Source: Oscillatoriophycideae cyanobacterium NC_groundwater_1537_Pr4_S-0.65um_50_18 (lineage in GTDB: Bacteria > Cyanobacteriota > Cyanobacteriia > Elainellales > Elainellaceae). Taken from it: a stretch of 64,000 nucleotides of DNA. Positions within the stretch are counted from its first letter, which is position 1; every line of letters starts with the position of its first letter. Under the pieces are notes generated by a model that did no database searches, was not told the DNA's origin, and saw only the letters and a list, made by a program, of their open reading frames with translations. Below are positions 2,538-42,514 of this stretch, piece after piece. The stretch is taken from contig JACQYI010000006.1 of NCBI GenBank assembly GCA_016208305.1, positions 1 through 64,000 of the forward strand, read 5' to 3'. A program made the position numbers and the translations under genes.

Positions 2538-3815
2538 CTAATCAGATTGGATATTAGGCTGAACTTCGCACAACCGACGCTCTAGAAAGCGACGCTCACT
2601 CTCATTTGTCACCAGTTCCAGTGCCCGTGTATAGCTCTGGGTCGCGTTCTCAAATGCGCCAACACGCCGGAATAAATCTGCACGGGTAGCGTGAAAGAGA
2701 TGGTAGTTGTCCAGGTCTGGGGCGAGGCTATCAATCAGTTCAAATGCTGCTAGTGGACTCTCTGCCATGGCGATCGCCACTGCCCGATTAAGAGCCACAA
2801 TGGGCGAAGGCTGCAAGCGTTCCAGCACCTCATAGAGTCGCACAATCTGTGCCCAGTCTGTGTCTTCTGCCCGTGCCGCCTGACAGTGGAGAGCAGCGAT
2901 CGCTGCCTGCAAGGCATACACCCCCGTTCCACCCCGCAACGCTTCTTCCACCAGGGGTAACGCTTCAGCAATTTGGGGGTGGTGCCAACGACGCCGATCT
3001 TGATCTTCCAGCAGAATCAGATCGCCTGCTTCATTCAAACGGGCATCGCGCCGTGAGTCGTGGAGTAACATCAGCGCCACCAATGCGGTGACTTCAGAGG
3101 GGGGTTGGGGTGCCAGCAATTGCCTCAGCAGTTGCCCTAGCCGAATCGCTTCGGTGCAAAGGTCTGCTCGTGCCATCAAATCTCCTTTGGTTGCGGCATA
3201 CCCTTCATTAAAGATGAGATAGATAACGGTCAAGACTGCCTCTATCCGAGGATTGAGATCGGTTGTCTCTGGTACTTTATAGGGAATGCCTGCATCTCGA
3301 ATTTTGCGTTTGGCACGGACTAATCGTTGTGCCATCGTTGCCGTAGGAACCAGAAAGGCGCGGGCGATTTCATCGGTTTCCAGTCCACCCAACATGCGCA
3401 GGGTTAACGCCACCTGCGTCTCCGTTGCCAGTGCCGGGTGGCAACAGGTAAAGATTAATCGCAGGCGATCGTCTCCAATTTCATCACTGTCGTAGGTGGG
3501 TTCTTCGCTCGATGGAATCAGCCCTGATGCGGCGTACCATTCTAGTTTTTCAGTCAGGCGTGTCTTTCGTCGCAGGCGATCGATCGCCTTATATCGGGCA
3601 GTGCGGATAATCCAGGCGCGAGGCAGATCGGGAATACCATTGCTTTCCCACTGATTTACTGCCGCTGCAAACGCTTCTTGTGCGGCTTCTTCAGCCAGAT
3701 CAAAATCTCCCACCAACCGAATTAGAATGGCGACAATGCGCCCCCATTCAGTGCGATATACAGAGGCGATCGCCTGAGCCACATCGGATTTTGAGGTTGA
3801 AGCCATACTTGCCAT
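2538..3815 (-). CDS. ECF RNA polymerase sigma factor, ECF42-type with C-terminal TPR-like extension
   Basis: Sigma-2 lies at the N-terminus (FDLAEEAAQEAF, then WIIRTARYKAIDRLRR). Sigma-4 follows near residues 130-190 (TDEIARAFLVPTATMAQRLV). A long C-terminal domain then carries the conserved IFNEGYAATKGD and helical repeats, as in the DUF6596/ECF42 class. No anti-sigma factor is adjacent; in this class the C-terminal extension is reported to control activity. The frame is open to a GTG at 3863, but the extra 16 codons coincide with a copy of the promoter repeat. ATG 3815 (or 3806) is therefore chosen. It is divergent from YciI/VOC genes, the known ECF42 context. Confidence 0.88.
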   Translation of the reverse strand: MASMASTSKSDVAQAIASVYRTEWGRIVAILIRLVGDFDLAEEAAQEAFAAAVNQWESNGIPDLPRAWIIRTARYKAIDRLRRKTRLTEKLEWYAASGLIPSSEEPTYDSDEIGDDRLRLIFTCCHPALATETQVALTLRMLGGLETDEIARAFLVPTATMAQRLVRAKRKIRDAGIPYKVPETTDLNPRIEAVLTVIYLIFNEGYAATKGDLMARADLCTEAIRLGQLLRQLLAPQPPSEVTALVALMLLHDSRRDARLNEAGDLILLEDQDRRRWHHPQIAEALPLVEEALRGGTGVYALQAAIAALHCQAARAEDTDWAQIVRLYEVLERLQPSPIVALNRAVAIAMAESPLAAFELIDSLAPDLDNYHLFHATRADLFRRVGAFENATQSYTRALELVTNESERRFLERRLCEVQPNIQSD

Positions 3816-24530: not shown

Positions 24531-24690
24531 AATCACCATTGAATTTGGAGAAAATAAGGTTTCCAGCAAACCTGAGATGCAGTTCGTGCTCTTTCAGCGA
24601 TCGGTGCTTCCAGTTTCTTACATTCAGAGATATTCTCGCGACCTTGAGATCCCATCTTCACCCCTCTAAGTGAGATGCAGTCCATTAATC

Positions 24691-25233
24691 ATGAATAGTA
24701 ATCAGCATTTTGCAAACTATCAGCCACGAATCCTTTTGATTACTGGAAACATGGCGGCGGGAAAATCGAGTGTTGCCCAAGCTTTAGCTGAACAGCTACC
24801 CAAAAGCGTCCATCTGCGGGGAGATATCTTCCGTCGCATGATTGTGAATGGACAAGCAGAAATGACATTGAATTTGTCAGCAGAAGCCTACCAACAACTC
24901 TATTTGCGCTATCACCTGGCTGTAACGGTGGCACATCAATATTTTCAGGCGGGTTTCACAGTTGTTTATCAGGATATCATTATTGGTACAGCATTGACTG
25001 ATGTTATTGCAATGTTTCAGGATATACCGCTGTCTGTGATTGTTTTATGTCCTGAAGCAGAAACTATCGCTGCACGAGATGCGGAACGGACGAAAACAGG
25101 ATATGCCGATGCCACTGTTGTTCATGCCTTCGATCGCATTCTCCGGGCTGAAACGCCTCGCCTCGGCTATTGGCTAGATTCAACAAATTTAACGATTCAA
25201 GAAACTGTTGATCAAATTTTGGCTCTTCTATAG
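24691..25233 (+). CDS. P-loop small-molecule kinase-like protein
   Basis: 180 residues from ATG 24691 (a GTG at 24670 is in frame). Walker A is GNMAAGKSSVAQAL; VYQDIIIGTALTDV provides an acidic strand, and ERTKTGYADATVVHAF a lid-like Arg region. The layout resembles chloramphenicol phosphotransferase, zeta-toxin-like and shikimate-kinase-like proteins; no substrate can be chosen between these. No antitoxin-like gene is adjacent. Confidence 0.8.
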   Translation: MNSNQHFANYQPRILLITGNMAAGKSSVAQALAEQLPKSVHLRGDIFRRMIVNGQAEMTLNLSAEAYQQLYLRYHLAVTVAHQYFQAGFTVVYQDIIIGTALTDVIAMFQDIPLSVIVLCPEAETIAARDAERTKTGYADATVVHAFDRILRAETPRLGYWLDSTNLTIQETVDQILALL

Positions 25234-25622: not shown

Positions 25623-26579
25623 ATGTTTTTTGCCATTGGACTGCTCCTCATTACTCACCTGGTTTTTCCTGTTGCTGGTTTAGTGTGGCTATGGCGAGGA
25701 AATGAACTCAGCAAACTTGAATGGCTTCTCAAACTCAGCATTGTTCTACTTTATGGTATTCAAATCTTCCTGATCGGACGCTGGGATTTTTTGAGCTACT
25801 TTCTGCGATTTGGGGTAATTGCCCTGTTGGTTGTGGCAGTGTACATCAGTTTCATCAAAGCAAAGTCTCTACCTTTTTATCCAACCCGCAAGCTGAGTAA
25901 CTACGTCTCTGTAGGAATCAGTAGTTTAGTCATTCTGGTTCTCCTGTCCTCACTCAGCAGTCATATCCCACGAGGATATTCTTTCAACGGTGAATCTGTT
26001 CAATTAAACTTTCCATTGCAGCAGGGGACTTACTATGTCGCTCATGGCGGCAATAGCCCTGCAATCAATTATCACAATGTCAATCCGACTCAGCAATATG
26101 CGTTAGATATCGTTAAGCTGAATGCGGTAGGAACCAGAGCCAATGGACTTTATCCGCGATCGCTAACAAACTATGCCATTTGGGGAGAACCGCTCTACAG
26201 CCCTTGTGACGGCATAATCCGCGAGACAAGGAATAATTTGCCTGATCTGATTCCGCCCCAAAGTGATCCTCCAAATCCTGCGGGCAATCATATTTTGATT
26301 CAATGTCAGGGGGCTGATGTTTTGATGGCTCATCTTCAACGGGGCAGCCTCGTGGTTCAAGACGGAGAGACGGTTGAGGCTGGACAGGCGATCGCTAAAG
26401 TTGGCAACTCTGGCAATACTACCGAACCCCATCTACACATCCATGCTCGCAGAGCAAATACAGGTCAGTCACCGTTAGAGGGCGAAGGACTACCAATCAC
26501 ATTTGATGGCAGGTTTTTGGTGAGGAATAGTTTATTCGTAGACAAAACTAATTTTGGAAATTCTAATGTTCCGAGTTAG
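25623..26579 (+). CDS. M23 family peptidase with N-terminal membrane segments
   Basis: 318 residues. The first ~115 residues hold four hydrophobic segments (for example FAIGLLLITHLVFPVAGLVW). The C-terminal LytM domain has QQYALDIVKL as the His/Asp-ligand region (His missing in the usual HxxxD spacing), LYSPCDGIIRETRNN and the terminal HxH in TEPHLHIHARR. It probably trims peptidoglycan peptides outside the membrane. The zinc site should be judged by structure, since the first ligand His is not evident. Confidence 0.85.
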   Translation: MFFAIGLLLITHLVFPVAGLVWLWRGNELSKLEWLLKLSIVLLYGIQIFLIGRWDFLSYFLRFGVIALLVVAVYISFIKAKSLPFYPTRKLSNYVSVGISSLVILVLLSSLSSHIPRGYSFNGESVQLNFPLQQGTYYVAHGGNSPAINYHNVNPTQQYALDIVKLNAVGTRANGLYPRSLTNYAIWGEPLYSPCDGIIRETRNNLPDLIPPQSDPPNPAGNHILIQCQGADVLMAHLQRGSLVVQDGETVEAGQAIAKVGNSGNTTEPHLHIHARRANTGQSPLEGEGLPITFDGRFLVRNSLFVDKTNFGNSNVPS

Positions 26580-26633
26580 TTTTGAATGCTCTAGAGTAGG
26601 CGATCGCAAGCAACTCCGATCGCCCACTTCTCA

Positions 26634-27374
26634 TTACTCTGCTTGCTCCAGAGCAGCCCTGGCTCTACCCAGATATTCCATCACTGTTGCATCGATCGCC
26701 CCTCGACTGGCAACTTCAGGCTGCTCCTGCTGATACATCCGGTTTAAGGATTGTTCAATTCCAGGATCACCCCCTGTAAACGCTTGAATCAGTTCAATCG
26801 ATCGGCGAGCAAGAGCTTTGACGGGTTCGCTGGCTGGATCAGCCCCCTTCGCCATCTCTGCCCGGACTTGTTCAAACAAATCTTGCCAATCAGTTTGCAC
26901 TTGCCTGATCTGCTCTTCGCCTAACAATTCCTGCCGTTGCTTAAGGGATTCTAACTGTTCAGAAGTGTAGTATTTTTCCAACATGTTCATCGCCTCGATG
27001 GTTTGAATGAGTGCTTCCACAGATACGGTCTGCATCGAGCTAACCGCTTGAGCGATCGCTTCCAGGCGATTGAGCAATTTTTGAGAGAGTTCAATTTGCT
27101 CACGCAGGCGGGCAGTGTGAAGTTGAATCACGCGATCAAAGGAAAAACTTTGTTGCTCCAGGCATTCGCGGATTTCTTCGAGAGAGAGGCCAATTTGCCG
27201 CAGCGATACGATTTGCTGCAAGCGAAGGATATTTTCCTTGCCATACAGTCGATACCCTGATTCAGTACGGTGAGAGGGCGAAAGTAAGCCGATTTCGTCG
27301 TAGTAATGCAACGTCCGTACCGAAACCCCTGTTTGCTTCGCCAAATCACCTACCTTGAGCGCAGTCGATTGCAT
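26634..27374 (-). CDS. MerR-family regulator with TipAS-like domain
   Basis: 246 residues. LKVGDLAKQTGVSVRTLHYY is the MerR HTH with the second wing DEIGLLSPSHRTESGYRLYG; a long coiled-coil dimerisation helix runs from about 75 to 120. The C-terminal half (YTSEQLESLKQRQELLGEEQ, then LARRSIELIQAFTGGDPGI) matches the TipAS thiopeptide-recognition domain. The protein would respond to a hydrophobic drug-like ligand. Ligand identity is inferred from family only. Confidence 0.93.
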   Translation of the reverse strand: MQSTALKVGDLAKQTGVSVRTLHYYDEIGLLSPSHRTESGYRLYGKENILRLQQIVSLRQIGLSLEEIRECLEQQSFSFDRVIQLHTARLREQIELSQKLLNRLEAIAQAVSSMQTVSVEALIQTIEAMNMLEKYYTSEQLESLKQRQELLGEEQIRQVQTDWQDLFEQVRAEMAKGADPASEPVKALARRSIELIQAFTGGDPGIEQSLNRMYQQEQPEVASRGAIDATVMEYLGRARAALEQAE

Positions 27375-27474
27375 CTCCTACTCCTTACCCATTACAGACA
27401 ACCTTATCTGTGAATAAATCTATGGTAAGAACCTCACGTTACGTCAGGGTCAAGGGGTAAAGCAGAAAAATAAT

Positions 27475-28008
27475 TTAGGCACGATATTGGTATTTGAATT
27501 GTTCATGTAAGTTTTGTGTTTCAATTTCACCAAATGATGTTTTGGCAAGCGCAAAACTCGAAAAGTCTTTGGGTCGCCACTCGCTTTGTGGAACTTCTTC
27601 GATGTAGTAAAAGTAGTCCCAGAGAATGGCTTCCCAACTGGTGCAACGCAGTAATTTGCCGCCAAGACTTCCTGTAGGTTCGGGTGGACAGGTTCCCGGA
27701 GGTAAGCCTTCTAGCTCATAGCTGTCTCCGACACGAGTACAGGGTTCGCAGTCCAGGAGAATGCCCTGCATCTCTGCCAGGAAGCCATAGGAAGTCTGTT
27801 CCGTAACGACGCCACCGAAAGAATGTAGCAGTGCCAAAAAATCTGGGGAGCGATCGCCCGGATAGGCAATATCAATATCCTCATGCTCACGGGTGATGCG
27901 ATGTAATTTGGCATCGATCGCCCAACCGCCCTGCAACCACAGAGGCAGGTTGAGCAGGTCTGCTGCCGAAAATAACTGATGAATCAACTCAATATGGCGA
28001 TCGTTCAT
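27475..28008 (-). CDS. ANT(2'')-Ia-like aminoglycoside nucleotidyltransferase
   Basis: 177 residues, the same length as the clinical aminoglycoside 2''-adenylyltransferase as I remember it. LPLWLQGGWAIDAKLHRITR leads to EHEDIDIAYPGDR with Asp 44 and Asp 46 (metal ligands), and LLDCEP supplies Asp 86, the catalytic base position. CTSWEAILWDYFYYIEEVP corresponds closely to the same region of ANT(2'')-Ia. The enzyme class transfers AMP to the 2''-OH of gentamicin or tobramycin. Native substrate here is unknown. It is 9 bases downstream of the AraC gene. No integron cassette structure is visible. Confidence 0.87.
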   Translation of the reverse strand: MNDRHIELIHQLFSAADLLNLPLWLQGGWAIDAKLHRITREHEDIDIAYPGDRSPDFLALLHSFGGVVTEQTSYGFLAEMQGILLDCEPCTRVGDSYELEGLPPGTCPPEPTGSLGGKLLRCTSWEAILWDYFYYIEEVPQSEWRPKDFSSFALAKTSFGEIETQNLHEQFKYQYRA

Positions 28009-28017
28009 GGGACACCG

Positions 28018-28914
28018 TTATCGCTGCTGCCGAAATGCTTTGGGAGTCGTTCCAGTCGAACGCCGAAAGACTTGACTAAAGGCACTGGGGGTTGCAAAGC
28101 CAACGTGCAGAGCAATCTCTGTAATGGGTAATTTGCTGTGCCAGAGCAATTCCTTCGCCCGCTCAATCCGTCGTTTGGTGACATATTGATGAGGCGTAAT
28201 CCCCATTGATTGCTTAAACTGACGACAGAAGTAAAACACGCTCATCCCCAAGGTATCGGCAACTTGATCGAGGGTAAAGGACTGACTTAAGTGAGATTCG
28301 ATAAAGTCCAGAGCACGATCGCGCAGATAGGTTGGCAAGCCACCTTGAGAAGAATACTGAGCCTTCCAAACCGTATGATTTTGCAGTAGCCGAGCCGCAA
28401 GGGCGATCGCCAAGGAATCCCCAAAGAGTTGTCCGGTTGGATGTTCCACAATCATGTCGGCATGGAGGGACAACAAAATTTGCTGGATCAGTGGATCGAC
28501 CAGAATCAGCTGCGGGAGGAGTTCAATCTGGGTGGCTTTAGTTGATTCTCGTGCAATTTTCTCCAAGAAAGATGGCGCAACGCCCAGCAGCAAAAACTCA
28601 TGCGGCTCCTGCCAAACGGCCCAATAACTTACGTGAGCCGGAATCACCATGATTTCATGGCTATGATAGCTGTGTTGATGAAACGTTCCACCCAATCGAT
28701 GCTCTACAGTCGCAGGTGATCCAGCCTCCCCAATTCCAATCAAATGCTGCGTCCATTGATGCTCCTGAAACTCACAGGGAGAATGGTGGCAGTGTGCTAA
28801 AGAAATTCCATTCCACTGGGCAAACTGCCTTGCAGGGTTGGAACGGCCAGAGATACGTTGGCTCATCGTTTCCAGTTGAGCCAGGTCTGCAATGAGGGGT
28901 TCTTTGCTAAACAT
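28018..28914 (-). CDS. AraC-family transcriptional regulator
   Basis: 298 residues. N-terminal ~170 residues form a cupin-like sensor domain. The C-terminal double HTH runs from FTLDQVADTLGMSVFYFCRQ through QSMGITPHQYVTKRRIERAK to IALHVGFATPSAFSQVFRR. Same subgroup as the AraC gene at 30783. It is preceded by a 75-aa gene, and a direct-repeat site at 29340-29370 lies upstream of both; the ANT(2'')-like gene follows by 9 bases, so all three may be one transcript. Confidence 0.93.
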   Translation of the reverse strand: MFSKEPLIADLAQLETMSQRISGRSNPARQFAQWNGISLAHCHHSPCEFQEHQWTQHLIGIGEAGSPATVEHRLGGTFHQHSYHSHEIMVIPAHVSYWAVWQEPHEFLLLGVAPSFLEKIARESTKATQIELLPQLILVDPLIQQILLSLHADMIVEHPTGQLFGDSLAIALAARLLQNHTVWKAQYSSQGGLPTYLRDRALDFIESHLSQSFTLDQVADTLGMSVFYFCRQFKQSMGITPHQYVTKRRIERAKELLWHSKLPITEIALHVGFATPSAFSQVFRRSTGTTPKAFRQQR

Positions 28915-28934
28915 CGTGCTCGCCTTTGAGAGAA

Positions 28935-29162
28935 TTAGAGATTAGAAAATTTCTGCTCTAACCATTGTCGTACCTCTTGCTCAGTGGTAAATCTGAAGTG
29001 GCGATCGCGAATGGGATCATAGACATGCCAATACACTTCACCAAAACGATCGCGTTTTTGCCAAATACGCGGCTCATCCGATAAAGATGTAGATATTGTA
29101 TCCCAAATAAGAGCTAAAATCGATCGCAGAGTAGAAGCGATTACCTTAAATTCTTTTTCCAT
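28935..29162 (-). CDS. Small conserved hypothetical protein (75 aa)
   Basis: 75 residues with a central DRFGEVYWHVYDPIRDRHFRF rich in aromatic residues and a C-terminal EQEVRQWLEQKFSNL helix. The N-terminal 20 residues (IASTLRSILALIWDTI) are amphipathic. I recognise a type of small cyanobacterial protein but no function. It starts just after a modest purine-rich site and precedes the AraC gene by 20 bases. Confidence 0.7.
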   Translation of the reverse strand: MEKEFKVIASTLRSILALIWDTISTSLSDEPRIWQKRDRFGEVYWHVYDPIRDRHFRFTTEQEVRQWLEQKFSNL

Positions 29163-29339
29163 ATTAAATTCTTTTTTCCATTCTTCTACCCCGTTGCAGT
29201 CGAAAAAAGGGCAGGTTGGATGCTTTCAAGCTCGGGGTAAAGAAAGTAAATTATTGCGAATTTTCCAGAGTCAACGATTAGTAATTACGTAGACTGCCAG
29301 AAGTTTAGGTTAATCGGAAATTTATCCTCGTGCTGTCTA

Positions 29340-29370
29340 ATTCTTGTGCAATTGTTAAAATCTTGCGCTC
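29340..29370 (+). promoter_or_regulatory. Direct-repeat regulatory site A
   Basis: ATTCTTGTGC and AAATCTTGCGCTC half-sites, offset by 19 bases. The same arrangement is found at 30682-30712 (19 bases) and 34414-34443 (18 bases). It lies upstream of the 75-aa/AraC/ANT transcript. AraC proteins commonly bind tandem direct repeats. Confidence 0.5.
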
Positions 29371-29415
29371 AATTTTGAAAACTGAGCGTAGAAACTGGCG
29401 ATCGTCAATACAAGA

Positions 29416-29910
29416 TTAATAGTAAGGATTGTAGGGAAGATCTGTGCTGCCATAATCAATCCCCATTTTGTGTAACTCTGAGGTGATTTGGCTGCGATGA
29501 TGGGTTTGATGGTTGAAGAGCTGCATATAATAGAACGATCGCGGCATTCTACTATGACGGTTGAGTCGCTTACTCCAAAATTCAATAACTTCATTCAGCC
29601 AATCTTGAGAACATTGAGAATCTTGAATCAAAATTTCATCAAATTCAAAACGAGCAGATTTCAATTCATTATACTCAGCATAAAGAATAACCGTTAAATC
29701 AATGGCTGGAAGGGTTTTGGTATGGATTAGAGTGTGAATTGTTTTATCTACATAGAGAATATGATTGAGGGTCTTGAAAATGGAACCAAAAAACATTTTT
29801 CGCTCTACATAGAGTTGCTCATGACTCAAATCATCACAAATGTGGAGTAACGTCTCATTTTGCCACTTGTTATAGAGAGCCATCATTTCTAAAAACTTTG
29901 GAGTGATCAT
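29416..29910 (-). CDS. DinB family protein
   Basis: 164 residues. MALYNKWQNETLLHICDDL opens the four-helix DinB/YfiT bundle; metal-ligand histidines are expected in LNHILYVDKTIHTL (first His) and MQLFNHQTHHRSQITSEL (the HxxxH pair). The closing DLPYNPYY is a common DinB ending. Role is uncertain: metal-dependent thiol transferases and damage-induced proteins belong here. Length is normal. Confidence 0.92.
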   Translation of the reverse strand: MITPKFLEMMALYNKWQNETLLHICDDLSHEQLYVERKMFFGSIFKTLNHILYVDKTIHTLIHTKTLPAIDLTVILYAEYNELKSARFEFDEILIQDSQCSQDWLNEVIEFWSKRLNRHSRMPRSFYYMQLFNHQTHHRSQITSELHKMGIDYGSTDLPYNPYY

Positions 29911-32848: not shown

Positions 32849-33766
32849 TCAGTTTTGTGTGTTCCCGCAAAGCGACTGTATAGCCATTTGTTTGTACTCA
32901 TCTAACCCCGACTTGAGCGCGAATTCAGCAAGTTCTATAGCAAAAGTAGCGTTCAGTTCAATTACGTGGTCTGCCATCCTTGACCACGTGCGCCCCCCTG
33001 CTTCTGCATAGCCTGAGATCAGTTTATTGAGAGCGTCTTGACCAAACGTGCGGTAATGAGCGACAAAATCTCTGGCGGGGTCAGCGACAGATGCCTCAGT
33101 CCAATCGATGAATCCGGTCACCTGCGCCTGTTCATCGATCAGAATATGTCCAGCATGTAAATCACCGTGGGTTAATGTCGTTTCCTGCATCCAAATTTCA
33201 TCGTTATGAAGCCAGTTTTGCCAACGCTCCCATAACGTCTGATCAACACCAAACTCACGCTTGACGGCATCCATTCTCTGCTTCATATCAACTCTTACGG
33301 CTTCAGCAGTTTTAATCGGAAGACCACTTGCACGGACTCTCTCAATGCTGATTTGATGTAGAGAAGCTAACCCCTTAGCTAGCGACTGATGGAATTGATC
33401 GGGTACATTTGCCGGATCAATTTCCCACACATAGGCTTTTGCTTTTGGATCGATCGTGCCCATGGGTACACCGTCTAATGCTCGATAAGCAATCAGTTCA
33501 TCTGTACAAATCGTCCATTGTGGCACTTCCACACTTAAAAGCGGAGCAATCAGTTCTAACGTTCGCTTTTCCTTATCTATTGATGGCAAAACATCCTCTC
33601 GTCGAGGAAGACGCAAAATCCAACATTCTCCATCAATGTCTGTTGCCAGAACAACTAGGAAATCAAGACCCGACTCATTAAATTGAAGTGAACCTTCCTG
33701 GAGGATCAAACCGTTCTTATCAGCTAACTCCAACACTTCTTGCTGTGATTGGGTACTTTCGACCAT
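32849..33766 (-). CDS. Mph-like macrolide 2'-phosphotransferase
   Basis: 305 residues, close to the ~300 of Mph(A)/Mph(B). Distinctive matches to Mph(B) as I remember it are LQFNESGLDFLVVLATDIDG, WILRLPRREDVLPSIDKEKR, KQRMDAVKREFGVD, and the catalytic loop LTHGDLHAGHILIDEQAQVT followed by GFIDWTEASVADPARDFVAH. Members phosphorylate 14- to 16-membered macrolides with GTP. Whether this one does is untested; it may have another substrate. The N-terminal Met context is weak. Confidence 0.88.
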   Translation of the reverse strand: MVESTQSQQEVLELADKNGLILQEGSLQFNESGLDFLVVLATDIDGECWILRLPRREDVLPSIDKEKRTLELIAPLLSVEVPQWTICTDELIAYRALDGVPMGTIDPKAKAYVWEIDPANVPDQFHQSLAKGLASLHQISIERVRASGLPIKTAEAVRVDMKQRMDAVKREFGVDQTLWERWQNWLHNDEIWMQETTLTHGDLHAGHILIDEQAQVTGFIDWTEASVADPARDFVAHYRTFGQDALNKLISGYAEAGGRTWSRMADHVIELNATFAIELAEFALKSGLDEYKQMAIQSLCGNTQN

Positions 33767-36631: not shown

Positions 36632-37978
36632 ATGAAGACTTCTGAATCGCAAGCCTCTGAGTCTCAAGACTCATTGAAAAACATTTCAGTACATCGTCGT
36701 TGGTTGCGATCGCCACTGGTGTTACTTACACTTCTGTTATTGGCTGGTGGTGGTGTCCTGACATGGCGCATGCTAACGCCTGCCAGTGATTCTCCGCCTG
36801 AAATGGCGCAAGGGATGCCCCCAACTCCCGTACAAACTGCCCCTTTACGGCGAGGTAAAGGGGTTCAGCTTGTTCAGTTACTAGGACAGGTTGAAGCGAC
36901 TCAAAGTGCAACGCTTCGGACTCAGACGGCTGGTATTGTTCAGCAGGTTTTAGTTGAGGTGGGCGATCGCGTCACACCGGGAATGACCATTGTGATTCTG
37001 GATGATGCCGATCAACAGCTTGCCCTAGCGGAAGCGCAGGCAAGACTGGCACAGGAGCGCAGTGAATTAGCCCGGTTGGAGGTGGGAACTCGACCGGAAA
37101 TTATTGCCCAGCGTCAAGCCGAACTCCGCGCTGCTCAGGCACGAGAACGTGAGGCCCAGGACAACTTGAGACGCAACTCAGAGTTGGCCCAGGAAGGAGC
37201 GATTTCACAGCGATTGTTGATCGAAGCGCGTGCGGATGCGGATGCGGCCCAGGCAGAACAGCTACAAACGCAAGCCACTTTAGCAGAAGCCACAGCAGGC
37301 CCCACTCGCGAAGAAATTGCCGCTCAACAGGCTAGCGTTGCGGCGGCTGTCTCCGCTGTCAATCAGGCGCAACTGACTCTCGCCCGAACGCAAGTGAAGG
37401 CAGCAACCGGAGGCATTGTGCGATCGCGTGAAGTGAGTACGGGTGATCGGGTGGAGGATAATGATCCTGTTCTAACGTTGGTCGATAGCAATGAGTTAGA
37501 TGTGTTTCTGGAATTACCAGAGCAACTCAGTGGTAGTATCACACCCGGTTTGCCGGTTGAATTGGCTGCTCGCGCTCTTCCCAATTGGCGACAACGCGCC
37601 ACGATTAGCGGTGTCGTTCCGGCGGCCAACGCCACGTCTCGACGACAACTGGTGCGGGTCGAATTACAGAATCCGCCACCGAACTTGTTGCCCCAAATGG
37701 CGATTGCTGGAGAACTTCAGTTACAGGTTGCACCCAATAGTTTTGTCGTGCCCCGCGATGCACTGGTGCAGCGAGGGGAGACCTGGTTGGTTTACACAGT
37801 TGTCAACGGTAAAGCCGCAGAAATAAAAGTGAATTTGGTTGCGGATATGGGTGAAACGGTGGCGATTTCCGGGAGCCAATTACAGGCTGGACAACCCGTA
37901 GTCGTGAGAGGGGGTGAAGCACTGATGGATGGCGCACCCGTGCAGATTGCTGAATCAACTACAAAGCAAGAATCATGA
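36632..37978 (+). CDS. RND efflux periplasmic adaptor (HlyD/MFP family)
   Basis: 448 residues from ATG 36632. One TM anchor follows a short N-terminus (VLLTLLLLAGGGVLTWRML). The lipoyl half-domain begins RTQTAGIVQQVLVEVGDRVT, then a long Ala/Gln/Glu-rich hairpin (residues about 125-255), then the second half (VKAATGGIVRSREVSTGDRV) and a beta-barrel. It connects the inner membrane pump to an outer membrane channel. Its stop overlaps the next ATG by 4 bases (ATGA), so the operon is tight. Confidence 0.93.
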   Translation: MKTSESQASESQDSLKNISVHRRWLRSPLVLLTLLLLAGGGVLTWRMLTPASDSPPEMAQGMPPTPVQTAPLRRGKGVQLVQLLGQVEATQSATLRTQTAGIVQQVLVEVGDRVTPGMTIVILDDADQQLALAEAQARLAQERSELARLEVGTRPEIIAQRQAELRAAQAREREAQDNLRRNSELAQEGAISQRLLIEARADADAAQAEQLQTQATLAEATAGPTREEIAAQQASVAAAVSAVNQAQLTLARTQVKAATGGIVRSREVSTGDRVEDNDPVLTLVDSNELDVFLELPEQLSGSITPGLPVELAARALPNWRQRATISGVVPAANATSRRQLVRVELQNPPPNLLPQMAIAGELQLQVAPNSFVVPRDALVQRGETWLVYTVVNGKAAEIKVNLVADMGETVAISGSQLQAGQPVVVRGGEALMDGAPVQIAESTTKQES

Positions 37979-40900
37979 ATTTTATTGAAACGGCTGTGCG
38001 CTGGCGACACGGCACTTTTGTTTTATTCTGTCTGCTGACGATGTTTGGGTTCATCGCCCTGTTTCAATTGCCGCTAGAACTGCAACCCGGAGGCGATCGC
38101 CCTGAAATTACAATTACCACACCCTACATTGGTGCTGCCCCGGCTGAGGTAGAAGATTTGATCACGCGCCCGATCGAAGATCTGCTGGAAGAAATTGAAG
38201 GCGTTCAGGAAATTACCAGTCAGAGTTTAGCGGGTATCAGCACCATCACCCTGGAATTTGAATGGGGAACGGATGTGGATGCCCGTCTGCTGGATGTGCT
38301 GAACAAATTGCAGCAGGTGGAAGAGCTACCCGACGAAGCTGGTGAGTCGGATGTGCAGGTCGCCAGCGGTAACAATAATCCGATGATGTGGATTGTGCTG
38401 AAACCAAAACCGGGTTATCAGACGGACTCCAATGGTTACCGTGACCTGATTGAAGAAATTGTTGAACCTGCCCTGCGACGAGTGGAAGGCACAAGCCGAT
38501 TCTTTATTGTGGGCGGTCAGGAACGGGAAGTGGAAGTATTGGTTGATCCAAAAGCGTTGTCCGATCGCAATCTTACCCTTGCAGATGTCACAGATACCTT
38601 AAGCACCAACAATCGTGATATTCGGGGTGGGCCCCTAGTGCTGGGTAGACGCGAATATCAGGTGCGCACGGTGAACCGAGCCCAGGAACTGGAGCAATTA
38701 GAAACCTTTGTGCTGCGGCGAGATCAGGGAGGAACCGTCTATCTACGGGATGTCGCAACGGTAGAAATGGGACGCAAGTTTCAGGACAGTGTATTTTTGT
38801 TCAACGATGTTCCCTCCGCTGGCGTGGGCATTATCCGGCGGGTGGGAGCGAATGTACCCCAAGTGGCTGAAGGGGTTCGAGCCGCACTGGCAAAATTGCA
38901 AGTCCAGTTCGATCGCCAGAATCAAGGGGTTGAGTTTGAGGTGGTCTACGACGAAAGTACCTACATTGATCAATCCGTTGAAAACGTGCGGGGCGATTTG
39001 ATTGTGGGTGGTGTGTTGGCGATCGCTGTTCTGCTCCTATTTCTCGGCTCGCTGCGGACGGTTGTGGTCGTTGCCATCAGCATTCCAGTCGCGATGATTG
39101 TTGTGTTTATTGTGAGTGCGATCCTGGGGCGATCGCTCAACATTATCAGTTTGGCAGCATTGGGGTTTGCCGCAGGGATGGTGGTTGATAACGCGATCGT
39201 TGTGGTCGAAAATATCTTCACCCACATGCAGCAGGGCAAAAGTCGATTACAAGCAACCATCGATGGAACCCAGGAGGTGGGCGGAGCAATTTTGGCCGCA
39301 ACCCTGGCAAATGTCGCCGTCTTTGCGCCCCTAGTGTTGGTGACAGGTGAAGTCTCGGCACTATTTGTCGATATGGCAATCACGATTACGGCAGCAGCGG
39401 TCTTATCCATGTTTGCGTCGTTAACGCTACTGCCCATGTTAGCGAGCCTGTTTCTCAATCCTGCCGAAGCTCAGCAAACCTTTCAGTTGGGTGACGATAA
39501 CGATACGGAGCCATTGCAGGGAAACTGGTTTGAGCGATCGGTGATGCGAACCTCGCTCGTGTTTCGACGGCTCCAAAGCAAATTAGAGCGATTTTTGCTG
39601 GCAACGGTTGGTTGGGCGTTAGGACCGCACCGACTCAAGCGACGGTTGGCATTGCTCTCGGTTCCGATCGTGTTGCTAGTTTCCAGTATTGTCTTATTGC
39701 CACCCGCCGATTATCTGCCGGAAGGCAACCTCAATTTTATCTTTTGGTTAACCGAGACATTTCCCGGCACCAGCGTCCCAGAAGCAGTTGAACTCTCTGC
39801 ACCCGCCAGAGCTTTCCTCCAAGAGCAACCCGAAATTGAAACTACCTTTTTTGCCAACTTCCCTCAGTTTCGAGGCATTGGTGTCAGTTTGAAACCGGGA
39901 GCCGCAACCGGGAGCGGACTGACAGAAATGCAACAACGGTTAACGGGCATGAGCTTCGGCTATCCGGGCTACAAATTTATGTTTCCAATCCGATTCCCGA
40001 TTTTCAACGATCCGGGTAAATCGTTTGAGGTGCAGATTATCGGTCCAGATTTGGATCGACTGAATCAACTAGAACAACAATTGACGCAGCAAATCTCTGC
40101 TCTACCGGGAGTTGCCAATGCGCGTGCCGATTCGGTAAATGGTGCGCCACAACTGCAAGTCATTCCCGATCGCATCCGCTTAGCAGAAGTGGGCTTATCA
40201 GAATCAGACGTTGGAGCGATGGTGGAAGCCGCATTGGGAGGACGTTTTGCGTCTGAATTTGTGGATGGCAAAGAAGAATTGGATGTCACTGTGCAATTGC
40301 AAAATGTCTTTGTCAAAACTCCCGAACAGTTGCGGCAGCTATCGCTGTACAGTTCGCAGATTGCTCAGGCTCCGTCACCCGACGACGATGAGGCTAATGC
40401 TTCAATAGCAAACGGTGGACAGGTTCAGTTGGCGGATATCGCAACGGTACAAGAAACAACTGGCCCTGGCGTCATTAACCATGTGGATTTAGAACGCTCA
40501 ACCACTCTGACCGTCAGCCTGACTCCCGATGCACCCCTCGGTCAACTGGTGAATCAGACCGAGACGCAAATTCTGGCACCGTTGCGAGCCACATTACCGC
40601 CCGAATTTCAGGTGGAATTGGCTGGTTCAGCCGATCGCCTTGCTGAAACGGTAGGACAACTTGCATCTGCTTTTGTCTTTTCAGTCATCATTACCTATTT
40701 GCTATTAGTTGCTCTGTATCGTTCATTTCTCTATCCCTTAGTGATTATGGCAACTGTGCCAATGGGATTGACTGGCGCGCTACTCAGCCTGGTCATTGTC
40801 AACTGGATTCCGGGTATGATTGTGCCCCTGGATATGATTACCGGATTAGGATTTCTGATTCTAACGGGAGTAGTTGTAAACAATGCCATCTTGATTGTAG

Positions 40901-41193
40901 AGCGAGTCCTCCAGCTTCAGGAGGAGGGACAGAAGTACGATGAATCCTTATATAACGCAACGCGCGATCGCCTCCGCCCTATCTTTATGTCTGCTGGAAC
41001 CAGCGTCTTAGGCATGGTTCCCCTGGCTATCTTTCCGGGACAGGGATCGGAACTCTATCAGGGGCTGGGAATTGCTTTGACTGGAGGATTAGCCTTTTCC
41101 ACAATTCTGACTCCCACGGTCGTTCCCGCATTGATGGCACTGTTGCAGGACTTGAATGTCCGTCACCGCAACCAAAGGAAATTTGAACCGTAA
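37975..41193 (+). CDS. RND-family (HAE1-like) multidrug efflux pump
   Basis: 1072 residues, the family's usual length. The 12-TM layout includes TM1 (FVLFCLLTMFGFIALFQLPL) and the TM4 signature LGFAAGMVVDNAIVVVENIF, with the second half GLGFLILTGVVVNNAILIVE. Two large periplasmic loops are present; the HAE1-type proton-relay acidic residue in TM4 is plausible in MVVDNA. Cooperates with the adaptor at 36632. No outer membrane factor is in the window. Substrates may be drugs or metals; sequence does not decide. Confidence 0.95.
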   Translation: MNFIETAVRWRHGTFVLFCLLTMFGFIALFQLPLELQPGGDRPEITITTPYIGAAPAEVEDLITRPIEDLLEEIEGVQEITSQSLAGISTITLEFEWGTDVDARLLDVLNKLQQVEELPDEAGESDVQVASGNNNPMMWIVLKPKPGYQTDSNGYRDLIEEIVEPALRRVEGTSRFFIVGGQEREVEVLVDPKALSDRNLTLADVTDTLSTNNRDIRGGPLVLGRREYQVRTVNRAQELEQLETFVLRRDQGGTVYLRDVATVEMGRKFQDSVFLFNDVPSAGVGIIRRVGANVPQVAEGVRAALAKLQVQFDRQNQGVEFEVVYDESTYIDQSVENVRGDLIVGGVLAIAVLLLFLGSLRTVVVVAISIPVAMIVVFIVSAILGRSLNIISLAALGFAAGMVVDNAIVVVENIFTHMQQGKSRLQATIDGTQEVGGAILAATLANVAVFAPLVLVTGEVSALFVDMAITITAAAVLSMFASLTLLPMLASLFLNPAEAQQTFQLGDDNDTEPLQGNWFERSVMRTSLVFRRLQSKLERFLLATVGWALGPHRLKRRLALLSVPIVLLVSSIVLLPPADYLPEGNLNFIFWLTETFPGTSVPEAVELSAPARAFLQEQPEIETTFFANFPQFRGIGVSLKPGAATGSGLTEMQQRLTGMSFGYPGYKFMFPIRFPIFNDPGKSFEVQIIGPDLDRLNQLEQQLTQQISALPGVANARADSVNGAPQLQVIPDRIRLAEVGLSESDVGAMVEAALGGRFASEFVDGKEELDVTVQLQNVFVKTPEQLRQLSLYSSQIAQAPSPDDDEANASIANGGQVQLADIATVQETTGPGVINHVDLERSTTLTVSLTPDAPLGQLVNQTETQILAPLRATLPPEFQVELAGSADRLAETVGQLASAFVFSVIITYLLLVALYRSFLYPLVIMATVPMGLTGALLSLVIVNWIPGMIVPLDMITGLGFLILTGVVVNNAILIVERVLQLQEEGQKYDESLYNATRDRLRPIFMSAGTSVLGMVPLAIFPGQGSELYQGLGIALTGGLAFSTILTPTVVPALMALLQDLNVRHRNQRKFEP

Positions 41194-41206: not shown

Positions 41207-42514
41207 ATGACTAAAACCTTTTACGCCATCTTAGCCAACTCACTGGTGGCTGCACTGACCAACACCTTTGTCTGGTTTGCAGTCACCTTTTGGGTTTTTC
41301 TACAAACTCGATCCGTGCTGGCAACCTCGGTGATGGCAGGTGTGTATGTAGGGACGGTTGCCCTCTCTGGTTTCTTTCTCGGATCGCTGGTCGATCGCTA
41401 TCGCAAGAAAACTTCGATGCTACTGTCCAGCATCTGTTCTCTCATCTTATACATACTCGCTCAAATCATTTTTAGTTCCACGTCACCCGCTGTTTTTACC
41501 GACGTATCCAGCATTCCACTGTGGATTTTTATTGTGCTAACGCTGATGGGGGCGATCGCTGGAAACATCCGCACGATCGCTCTACCAACCCTCGTCACCT
41601 TGCTGATTCCTGAAGCCGAGCGAGATAAAGCTAATGGTCTGGTGGGTACTGCAAACGGTGTATCATTTCTCATTGCTTCTATCTTTAGCGGATTGGCGAT
41701 CGGTTTTTTGGGGGTCTATTGGGTGATGGTGTTTGCGATCGCGCTGACGGTTGCCGTCATCCTGCATCTGGCAATCCTCCCTATTCCCGAACAAACGATC
41801 GTTCATTCAGACCATCACACCCAACATATTGACGTTCGGGGGACGATTCGGGCGATCTCGCTCGTCCCCGGATTATTTGGCCTGATTTTCTTTAATTGCT
41901 TCAACAACTTCCTGGGTGGGGTCTTCATGGCCCTGATGGATGCCTATGGTTTGTCCCTGGTGTCAGTGCAGGTGTGGGGAATTTTGTGGGGGCTGTTAAG
42001 TCTGGGATTTATTGTGGGTGGTTTGGTTGTTGCCAAGCGAGGTTTGGGGAACAGTCCATTACAAACCCTATTTCTGGCAAATATTGTCATGTGGGTGATT
42101 GCTACTGGCTTTACAATTCAAGCCTCTGTCGTATCATTAGCCGTTGGCATGTTCATTTATCTTTGTCTGATTCCAGCGGTTGAAGCCGCAGAACAAACAA
42201 TCCTACAAGCCGTCATTCCATTGGAGCGCCAAGGGCGTGTCTTCGGCTTTGCCCAGAGCATTGAGCAGGCGGCATCCCCCCTGACCGCTTTCATGATTGG
42301 GCCGATCGCTCAATTCGTTTTCATCCCATTCATGACCACGGGGGCAGGTGTAGATCTGATTGGTGACTGGTTTGGCACGGGAGCCAATCGCGGCATTGCC
42401 CTTTTATTTACAGCGACCGGATTAATTGGGTTAATCGTGACGTTGCTGGCAATGCGATCGCGTGCTTACCAAAAGTTATCTGCAAAGTATCAAGAACATG
42501 GGTTAACGGATTGA
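41207..42514 (+). CDS. MFS transporter (DHA3/macrolide-efflux-like)
   Basis: 435 residues with twelve hydrophobic segments. TFVWFAVTFWVFLQTRSVLA opens the DHA3-type N-half, GSLVDRYRKKTSMLLSS is the MFS motif A loop between TM2 and TM3, and GRVFGFAQSIEQAASPLTAF marks the C-half. The relatives include the Mef-type macrolide exporters, but many are uncharacterised. It follows the RND gene by 14 bases and is likely in the same operon. Confidence 0.92.
   Translation: MTKTFYAILANSLVAALTNTFVWFAVTFWVFLQTRSVLATSVMAGVYVGTVALSGFFLGSLVDRYRKKTSMLLSSICSLILYILAQIIFSSTSPAVFTDVSSIPLWIFIVLTLMGAIAGNIRTIALPTLVTLLIPEAERDKANGLVGTANGVSFLIASIFSGLAIGFLGVYWVMVFAIALTVAVILHLAILPIPEQTIVHSDHHTQHIDVRGTIRAISLVPGLFGLIFFNCFNNFLGGVFMALMDAYGLSLVSVQVWGILWGLLSLGFIVGGLVVAKRGLGNSPLQTLFLANIVMWVIATGFTIQASVVSLAVGMFIYLCLIPAVEAAEQTILQAVIPLERQGRVFGFAQSIEQAASPLTAFMIGPIAQFVFIPFMTTGAGVDLIGDWFGTGANRGIALLFTATGLIGLIVTLLAMRSRAYQKLSAKYQEHGLTD

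Follow-up and report, generated by a model that had tools for sequence, protein, structure and literature searches.

The stretch of DNA analyzed here (the window) corresponds to positions 1-64000 on contig C4, part of a cyanobacterial genome of 6.94 Mb that is 98% complete. On its minus strand, at 27475-28008, lies a gene for an ANT(2'')-Ia-like nucleotidyltransferase (the ANT gene), identified by its reading frame, by profile and alignment matches and by an AlphaFold model. The frame is open throughout, from an ATG start to a TAA stop, and encodes 177 amino acids. The codons for Asp44, Ile45 and Asp46 at 27871-27879 (minus strand; Asp44 at 27877-27879, Asp46 at 27871-27873) form a D-x-D motif with the expected metal ligands, while Asp86, the expected third carboxylate or catalytic base, is encoded at 27751-27753 on the same strand; all three aspartates are invariant in 15 of 15 aligned sequences. 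The protein also contains SWEAILWDYFYY, for which its counterpart from plasmid pR55 has SWEAIIWDYFYY, with 11 of the 12 positions the same. Contig C4 also carries recA, at 440 kb, and the ANT gene is therefore chromosomal; its GC content of 49% is similar to that of the surrounding DNA. In all these respects, namely position, length, numbering of the aspartates, nearness of SWEAILWDYFYY to the clinical sequence and chromosomal location, a first-pass annotation of this DNA proved right.

Upstream of the ANT gene, 9 bp before its start, lies a gene for an AraC-family regulator (28018-28914, minus strand; Pfam), and the shared strand and short gap make it possible that both form one operon. At one other cyanobacterial locus (L004), a 74% identical AraC homologue is found upstream of the ANT gene with two open reading frames in between. 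Downstream, the gene at 26634-27374 (minus strand; Pfam) encodes a regulator of the MerR family that carries an antibiotic-recognition domain of the TipAS type. MerR-type operators consist of an inverted repeat between promoter hexamers that are about 20 bp apart. An inverted repeat, AACCTCACGT / ACGTCAGGGT, was noticed by eye at about 27430-27455, between the ANT and MerR-TipAS genes; it is flanked by promoter-like hexamers about 20 bp apart and resembles a candidate operator of this type. A scan of 26500-29500 for sigma-70 promoters returned 0 sites, and the window contains no Rfam match at the gathering threshold and no tRNA genes.

Further away, the window encodes several proteins with a predicted role in drug handling. 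A homologue of macrolide 2'-phosphotransferases, 5 kb from the ANT gene (32849-33766, minus strand), shares 52.4% of its residues with clinical Mph(B) and 77% with the product of a gene carried by a Nostoc plasmid, and scores 376-377 bits against the NCBIfam models MphB and MphM, below both cut-offs. A CPT-like small P-loop kinase (24670-25233, plus strand) reaches 26.4 bits at a Pfam cut-off of 22, although AAA_33 scores better. Candidate genes for an RND permease (37975-41193) and an MFS protein with weak macrolide-efflux matches (41207-42514) both stay below the curated cut-offs. Together with the MerR-TipAS gene, the CPT-like and Mph(B)-like kinases suggest that the neighbors of the ANT gene are of the drug-handling type. 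Among 36 genomes of the same family, one (G020) has a 76% identical Mph without ANT, another (G013) has ANT without a close Mph, and a third (G019) has a 75% identical Mph and an ANT fragment on separate contigs.

No gene was found to accompany ANT at all of the loci examined. Pfam matches among 20 flanking open reading frames of eight loci include the glyoxalase, MarR, alpha/beta hydrolase, LysR, RlaP and TRAP-transporter families, and neighbors of the AraC, SDR and MerR types recur at some loci. Apart from the window, a MerR gene was seen beside ANT only in L002 and L013, with several loci incomplete at their edges, and comparison of the Deinococcus ficus MerR with that of the window revealed no link (best E 0.042 over 20 residues). 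In one animal-symbiont genome (L010), the ANT gene at 3001-3534 is situated between the TRAP-transporter genes DctP and DctQ on the same strand; a second one (L011, 2220-2753) has the same layout of open reading frames, with flanks that are 94-95% identical. At another locus (L008), the ANT copy is preceded by two RlaP-family genes.

Similarity to Clinical ANT(2'')-Ia

The window protein aligns with ANT(2'')-Ia of plasmid pR55 over its full length without gaps, with 86 of 177 residues identical (49%; BLASTP, single-pair E = 9e-67). A phmmer search of PDB sequences retrieved three distinct ANT(2'')-Ia sequences with E-values of 6e-55 to 7e-55 (4wqk, 6e-55), and the lincosamide enzyme 4fo1 with 2e-4. 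The protein scores 89.5 bits with PF10706 (Aminoglyc_resit), above the Pfam gathering cut-off of 21. With the NCBIfam model for ANT(2'')-Ia (NF000064) it reaches 185.2 bits and misses the cut-off of 350 by 165 bits; it is therefore a relative of ANT(2'')-Ia and not ANT(2'')-Ia itself.

An AlphaFold model built from 12 aligned family members (mean pLDDT 92.6, pTM 0.88) leads to the same family. In a fold search it was matched by five ANT(2'')-Ia entries with TM scores of 0.92-0.95 and an rmsd of 1.1-1.4, and the predicted structure recovers the two-domain fold of 4wqk and 5cfs at this level; the next-best match was LnuA, with a TM score of 0.61. The homology to the clinical enzyme that the first-pass annotation had proposed thus holds in sequence, in PDB matches and in predicted fold, and the identity of 49% across the protein stays above the limit of about 30% under which that annotation would have counted as refuted.

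Compared to ANT(2'')-Ia (aadB; PDB 4wqk, 4wql, 4xje, 5cfs, 5cft, 5cfu, 5kqj), the window protein has the same length, catalytic aspartate positions and fold, and the C-terminal motif SWEAxxWDYFYY and the gap-free alignment are common to both. The window gene differs in its limited identity, in its chromosomal location without attC, in its score below the NCBIfam cut-off, and in its acidic residues: 15 of the 33 acidic positions of the clinical enzyme are non-acidic in the window protein. LnuA (4fo1) and Lnu(D) share the N-terminal nucleotidyltransferase domain with its D-x-D motif, but Lnu(D) is only 22% identical to the window protein and lacks the C-terminal motif.

Conservation was assessed in an alignment of 15 sequences (the window protein, eight cyanobacterial, two symbiont, two Deinococcus and two clinical ones). 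Forty-six positions are invariant in all 15, including D44, D46, D86, E88, D131, Y132, Y135 and K147, and the C-terminal pattern SWEAxxWDYxxY is kept between window and clinical proteins. In the next group out (L014 and L020), W130, D131 and Y132 are conservatively replaced by F, E and F; that these three residues are common to the window and clinical proteins but changed there speaks for a similar substrate site. The clinical enzyme has 33 acidic residues; 12 of these are identical in the window protein and 18 are Asp or Glu there, so the acidic surface of the window protein may be weaker.

Occurrence in Other Genomes

A scan of the genome collection with six exact peptide patterns from the window protein identified 16 loci, 12 of which are cyanobacterial, the nearest in Leptolyngbyaceae. 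Eight intact cyanobacterial copies (L002-L009) occur in seven other genomes and are 77-86% identical to the window protein over the full length, with best segments of up to 89%; the C-terminal end of the L002 copy differs. At four of the 12 cyanobacterial loci (L012, L013, L015, L017), the gene is broken or incomplete. The remaining loci include copies of 62-64% identity in animal-symbiont genomes of the Thiodiazotropha type (L010, L011), a more distant copy from a genome of the Abditibacteriaceae (L014) and a disrupted copy in a bin labeled as Gracilibacteria (L016). In Phormidium sp. LEGE 05292, a single contig carries two ANT copies separated by about 9 kb (L008 and L009), whose full-length identity with the window protein is 81% and 77%, respectively.

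Samples of related genomes show how sparsely the gene is distributed. In the family of the window's genome, 4 of 36 genomes matched: its own, one with an intact copy (81%), one with a 66-residue fragment and one with a weak match over 24 residues. A draw across the phylum gave 3 matching genomes out of 386, comprising its own, one with two partial pieces of 77-78% and one with a weak 31% match that groups with the Lnu-like outgroup in the tree described below. Of 98 relatives, 7 matched including its own, with an intact copy (81%), L020 (43%) and otherwise fragments or weak matches. Among the Gammaproteobacteria, the class of the symbiont, 2 of 369 genomes matched the clinical protein: the gene-bearing genome that had been picked as the center, with the sole full-length match, and one over 72 residues. 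In the phylum of the L014 genome, 6 of 251 genomes matched, at full length only in the center genome. The cyanobacterial ANT genes form a rare and sparse clade, and their absence from most sampled relatives, together with the broken or partial state of 4 of the 12 loci, indicates that the gene is dispensable. The phage records searched contained no close relative of the window protein; four had Lnu-like genes (24-28% identity over 66% of the query). Likewise, a search of viral contigs with the clinical protein gave no confirmed relative.

Selection and Horizontal Transfer

The cyanobacterial copies are under purifying selection: of the 36 pairs among nine copies, 34 yielded a dN/dS, always within 0.03-0.16, and between the window copy and the eight other intact ones it is 0.035-0.151. 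The two symbiont copies, with a dN/dS of 0.34, are under weaker constraint. Synonymous divergence (pS) was compared with that of recA in seven genomes (without that of L004) and of gyrB in six (without those of L004 and G013). Between Anabaena subtropica and Nostoc parmelioides, pS is 0.75 for ANT and 0.32 each for recA and gyrB, whereas between the window genome and Anabaena it is 0.47 for ANT, 0.80 for recA and 0.82 for gyrB. As ANT appears to predate the host split in one pair but to postdate it in another, horizontal transfer is the best explanation. The pS of ANT is lower than that of recA in 19 of 21 pairs, so the gene itself, and not transfer, may account for part of the low values; the Anabaena-Nostoc pair is unaffected by this. 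There is thus good evidence for horizontal spread of the gene among cyanobacteria, with which its varied neighbors agree.

Relation to the aadB Cassette

ANT(2'')-Ia figures prominently among the causes of resistance to gentamicin and tobramycin, and its natural source is not known to have been found. The first-pass annotation had suggested that environmental relatives as close as the window gene would be informative about the origin of the aadB cassette. The gene is indeed a relative within the family, but closer ones exist: among the matches listed, plasmid genes of Deinococcus sp. QL22 and D. ficus (WP_249394941, WP_027463697) are 59% identical to clinical ANT(2'')-Ia, while the window protein is 48-49% identical to the clinical enzyme and to both Deinococcus proteins. 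These plasmid genes, likewise environmental and with the three aspartates kept, are annotated in their records either as ANT(2'')-Ia or as an aminoglycoside nucleotidyltransferase. The plasmid searches listed 40 of 600, 60 of 475, 12 of 476 and 12 of 475 matches, and more environmental relatives are possible.

In a maximum-likelihood tree of 21 sequences, clinical aadB joins the Deinococcus genes in a branch with 100/100 support, and the cyanobacterial copies fall outside. The tree does not resolve their own branching order. Of its 18 inner branches, 5 are well supported, and it is to be read with its thin taxon sampling, two plasmid records for the Deinococcota and flagged long outgroup branches in mind. 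It was built without broken or partial copies (L012, L013, L015, L016, L017, L019, L021, L024, L036), without L018 (whose ANT frame equals that of L007), L025 (a near copy of L022) and L001 (the window itself), and without the repeat loci L029-L035 and L037 and the weak matches L023 and L046-L050.

A pattern scan of 14 sequences detected no attC-like pattern within 200 bp 3' of the window gene, while the same scan found one behind clinical aadB (L026). Loose matches with repeats about 100 bp apart occur 47 bp (L005) and 36 bp (L009) past the stop and were given no weight. The reading of the window gene as an attC-bearing cassette was hence rejected. The genome has six partial matches to integron integrases, all below the cut-off of 265 and none of them on C4; the best lies at C41:425829-426257 (170.5 bits, one internal TGA), and C62:383-577 scores 65 bits. 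Matches below the cut-off were present in all 14 control genomes as well. GC and GC3 are 49% and 48% in the window gene and 58-59% and 62-64% in clinical aadB.

Judged by sequence, an identity of 49% is remote for a cassette source. With closer genes in Deinococcus and no attC, the window gene illustrates the reach of the family and not the origin of the cassette, and its placement in the tree makes it a second-line relative of aadB. We consider it a genuine but ordinary environmental member of the family, and the claim regarding the origin of aadB a weak one.

Proposed Function and Alternative Explanations

The roles of Asp44, Asp46 and Asp86 in ANT(2'')-Ia we take to resemble those of the corresponding residues in AadA. 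In AadA, Asp47, Asp49 and Glu87 bind two Mg2+ together with ATP, and Glu87 serves as the base (PMC6065190). By this analogy, the window protein would be a small enzyme of the ANT(2'')-Ia type that uses ATP for O-adenylylation, in which Asp44, Asp46 and Asp86 may hold Mg2+ and ATP and Asp86 may take the proton from the sugar hydroxyl. The sugar oxygen would then attack the alpha-phosphate of ATP and pyrophosphate would leave, yielding an adenylylated drug that would bind poorly to the ribosome. The likely substrate would be a 4,6-disubstituted 2-deoxystreptamine aminoglycoside, like kanamycin, gentamicin or tobramycin in type, or a closely similar natural compound that competing microbes would produce. 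For the window gene, we infer catalysis, substrate, resistance and co-expression with the AraC regulator in this sense. Homology, conservation, purifying selection and predicted fold indicate that it probably encodes an O-adenylyltransferase of aminoglycosides or aminoglycoside-like compounds; the window copy is apparently a functional cousin of the hospital gentamicin-resistance enzyme, with about half of its residues identical.

The most serious alternative is that the cyanobacterial clade applies the same chemistry to a different amino sugar or aminocyclitol, either a metabolite of its own or the product of a competitor, with weak or absent activity on aminoglycosides. Half of the residues and many acidic positions differ from the clinical enzyme, lincosamide nucleotidyltransferases come next among the named relatives, and the branch that unites clinical and Deinococcus sequences does not include the cyanobacterial copies. 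The C-terminal motif that is altered in L014 and L020 is nevertheless kept between window and clinical proteins, and changing neighborhoods and absence from most sampled genomes fit resistance better than metabolism, so that we regard a different substrate as less likely than an aminoglycoside-type one. The window copy might also be an inactive remnant heading for loss, like the broken or partial copies in its relatives (L012, L013, L015, L017), but its full open frame, three aspartates and low dN/dS (0.035-0.151) render this very improbable.

Two further readings have hardly any probability left. The fold search also retrieved MenT1 structures (TM 0.45-0.58), and an AbiEii Pfam match has an E-value of 0.007, below its cut-off, as might be expected of a nucleotidyltransferase toxin of the MenT or AbiEii kind that acts on tRNA; ANT(2'')-Ia matches far better (TM 0.92-0.95, 49% identity), the loci examined have no constant partner gene, and with weak matches only the toxin reading was rejected. 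Slighter still is the chance that the aadB cassette descends directly from a gene of the window type: equal length and a gap-free alignment at 49% identity would agree with it, but the closer Deinococcus plasmid genes (59%) and their 100/100 branch with clinical aadB, the different GC and GC3 and the lack of an attC-like pattern do not, and it was rejected on the tree and the identity.

Implications

Aminoglycoside-resistance genes, among others, have been predicted in cyanobacterial genomes (Timms et al., 2023, as cited in PMC12195311). Given these predictions and the Deinococcus relatives already named ANT(2'')-Ia, we do not claim an unpublished clade. The cyanobacterial, Thiodiazotropha-type and Deinococcus branches show that this type of enzyme reaches far beyond its usual clinical hosts, and according to the tree, Deinococcus-like relatives are the better lead for the origin of the cassette. 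The divergent enzymes also provide a natural set for asking which residues determine drug specificity. Tentatively, and with more doubt than confidence, we propose that cyanobacteria own a mobile clade of true aminoglycoside 2''-adenylyltransferases, which moves between orders under purifying selection and is found here in a chromosomal neighborhood of putative drug defense with an Mph(B)-like kinase, a TipAS-type sensor and efflux pumps. If this is true, phototrophs that face antibiotic producers would have possessed resistance of the ANT(2'') type for a long time.
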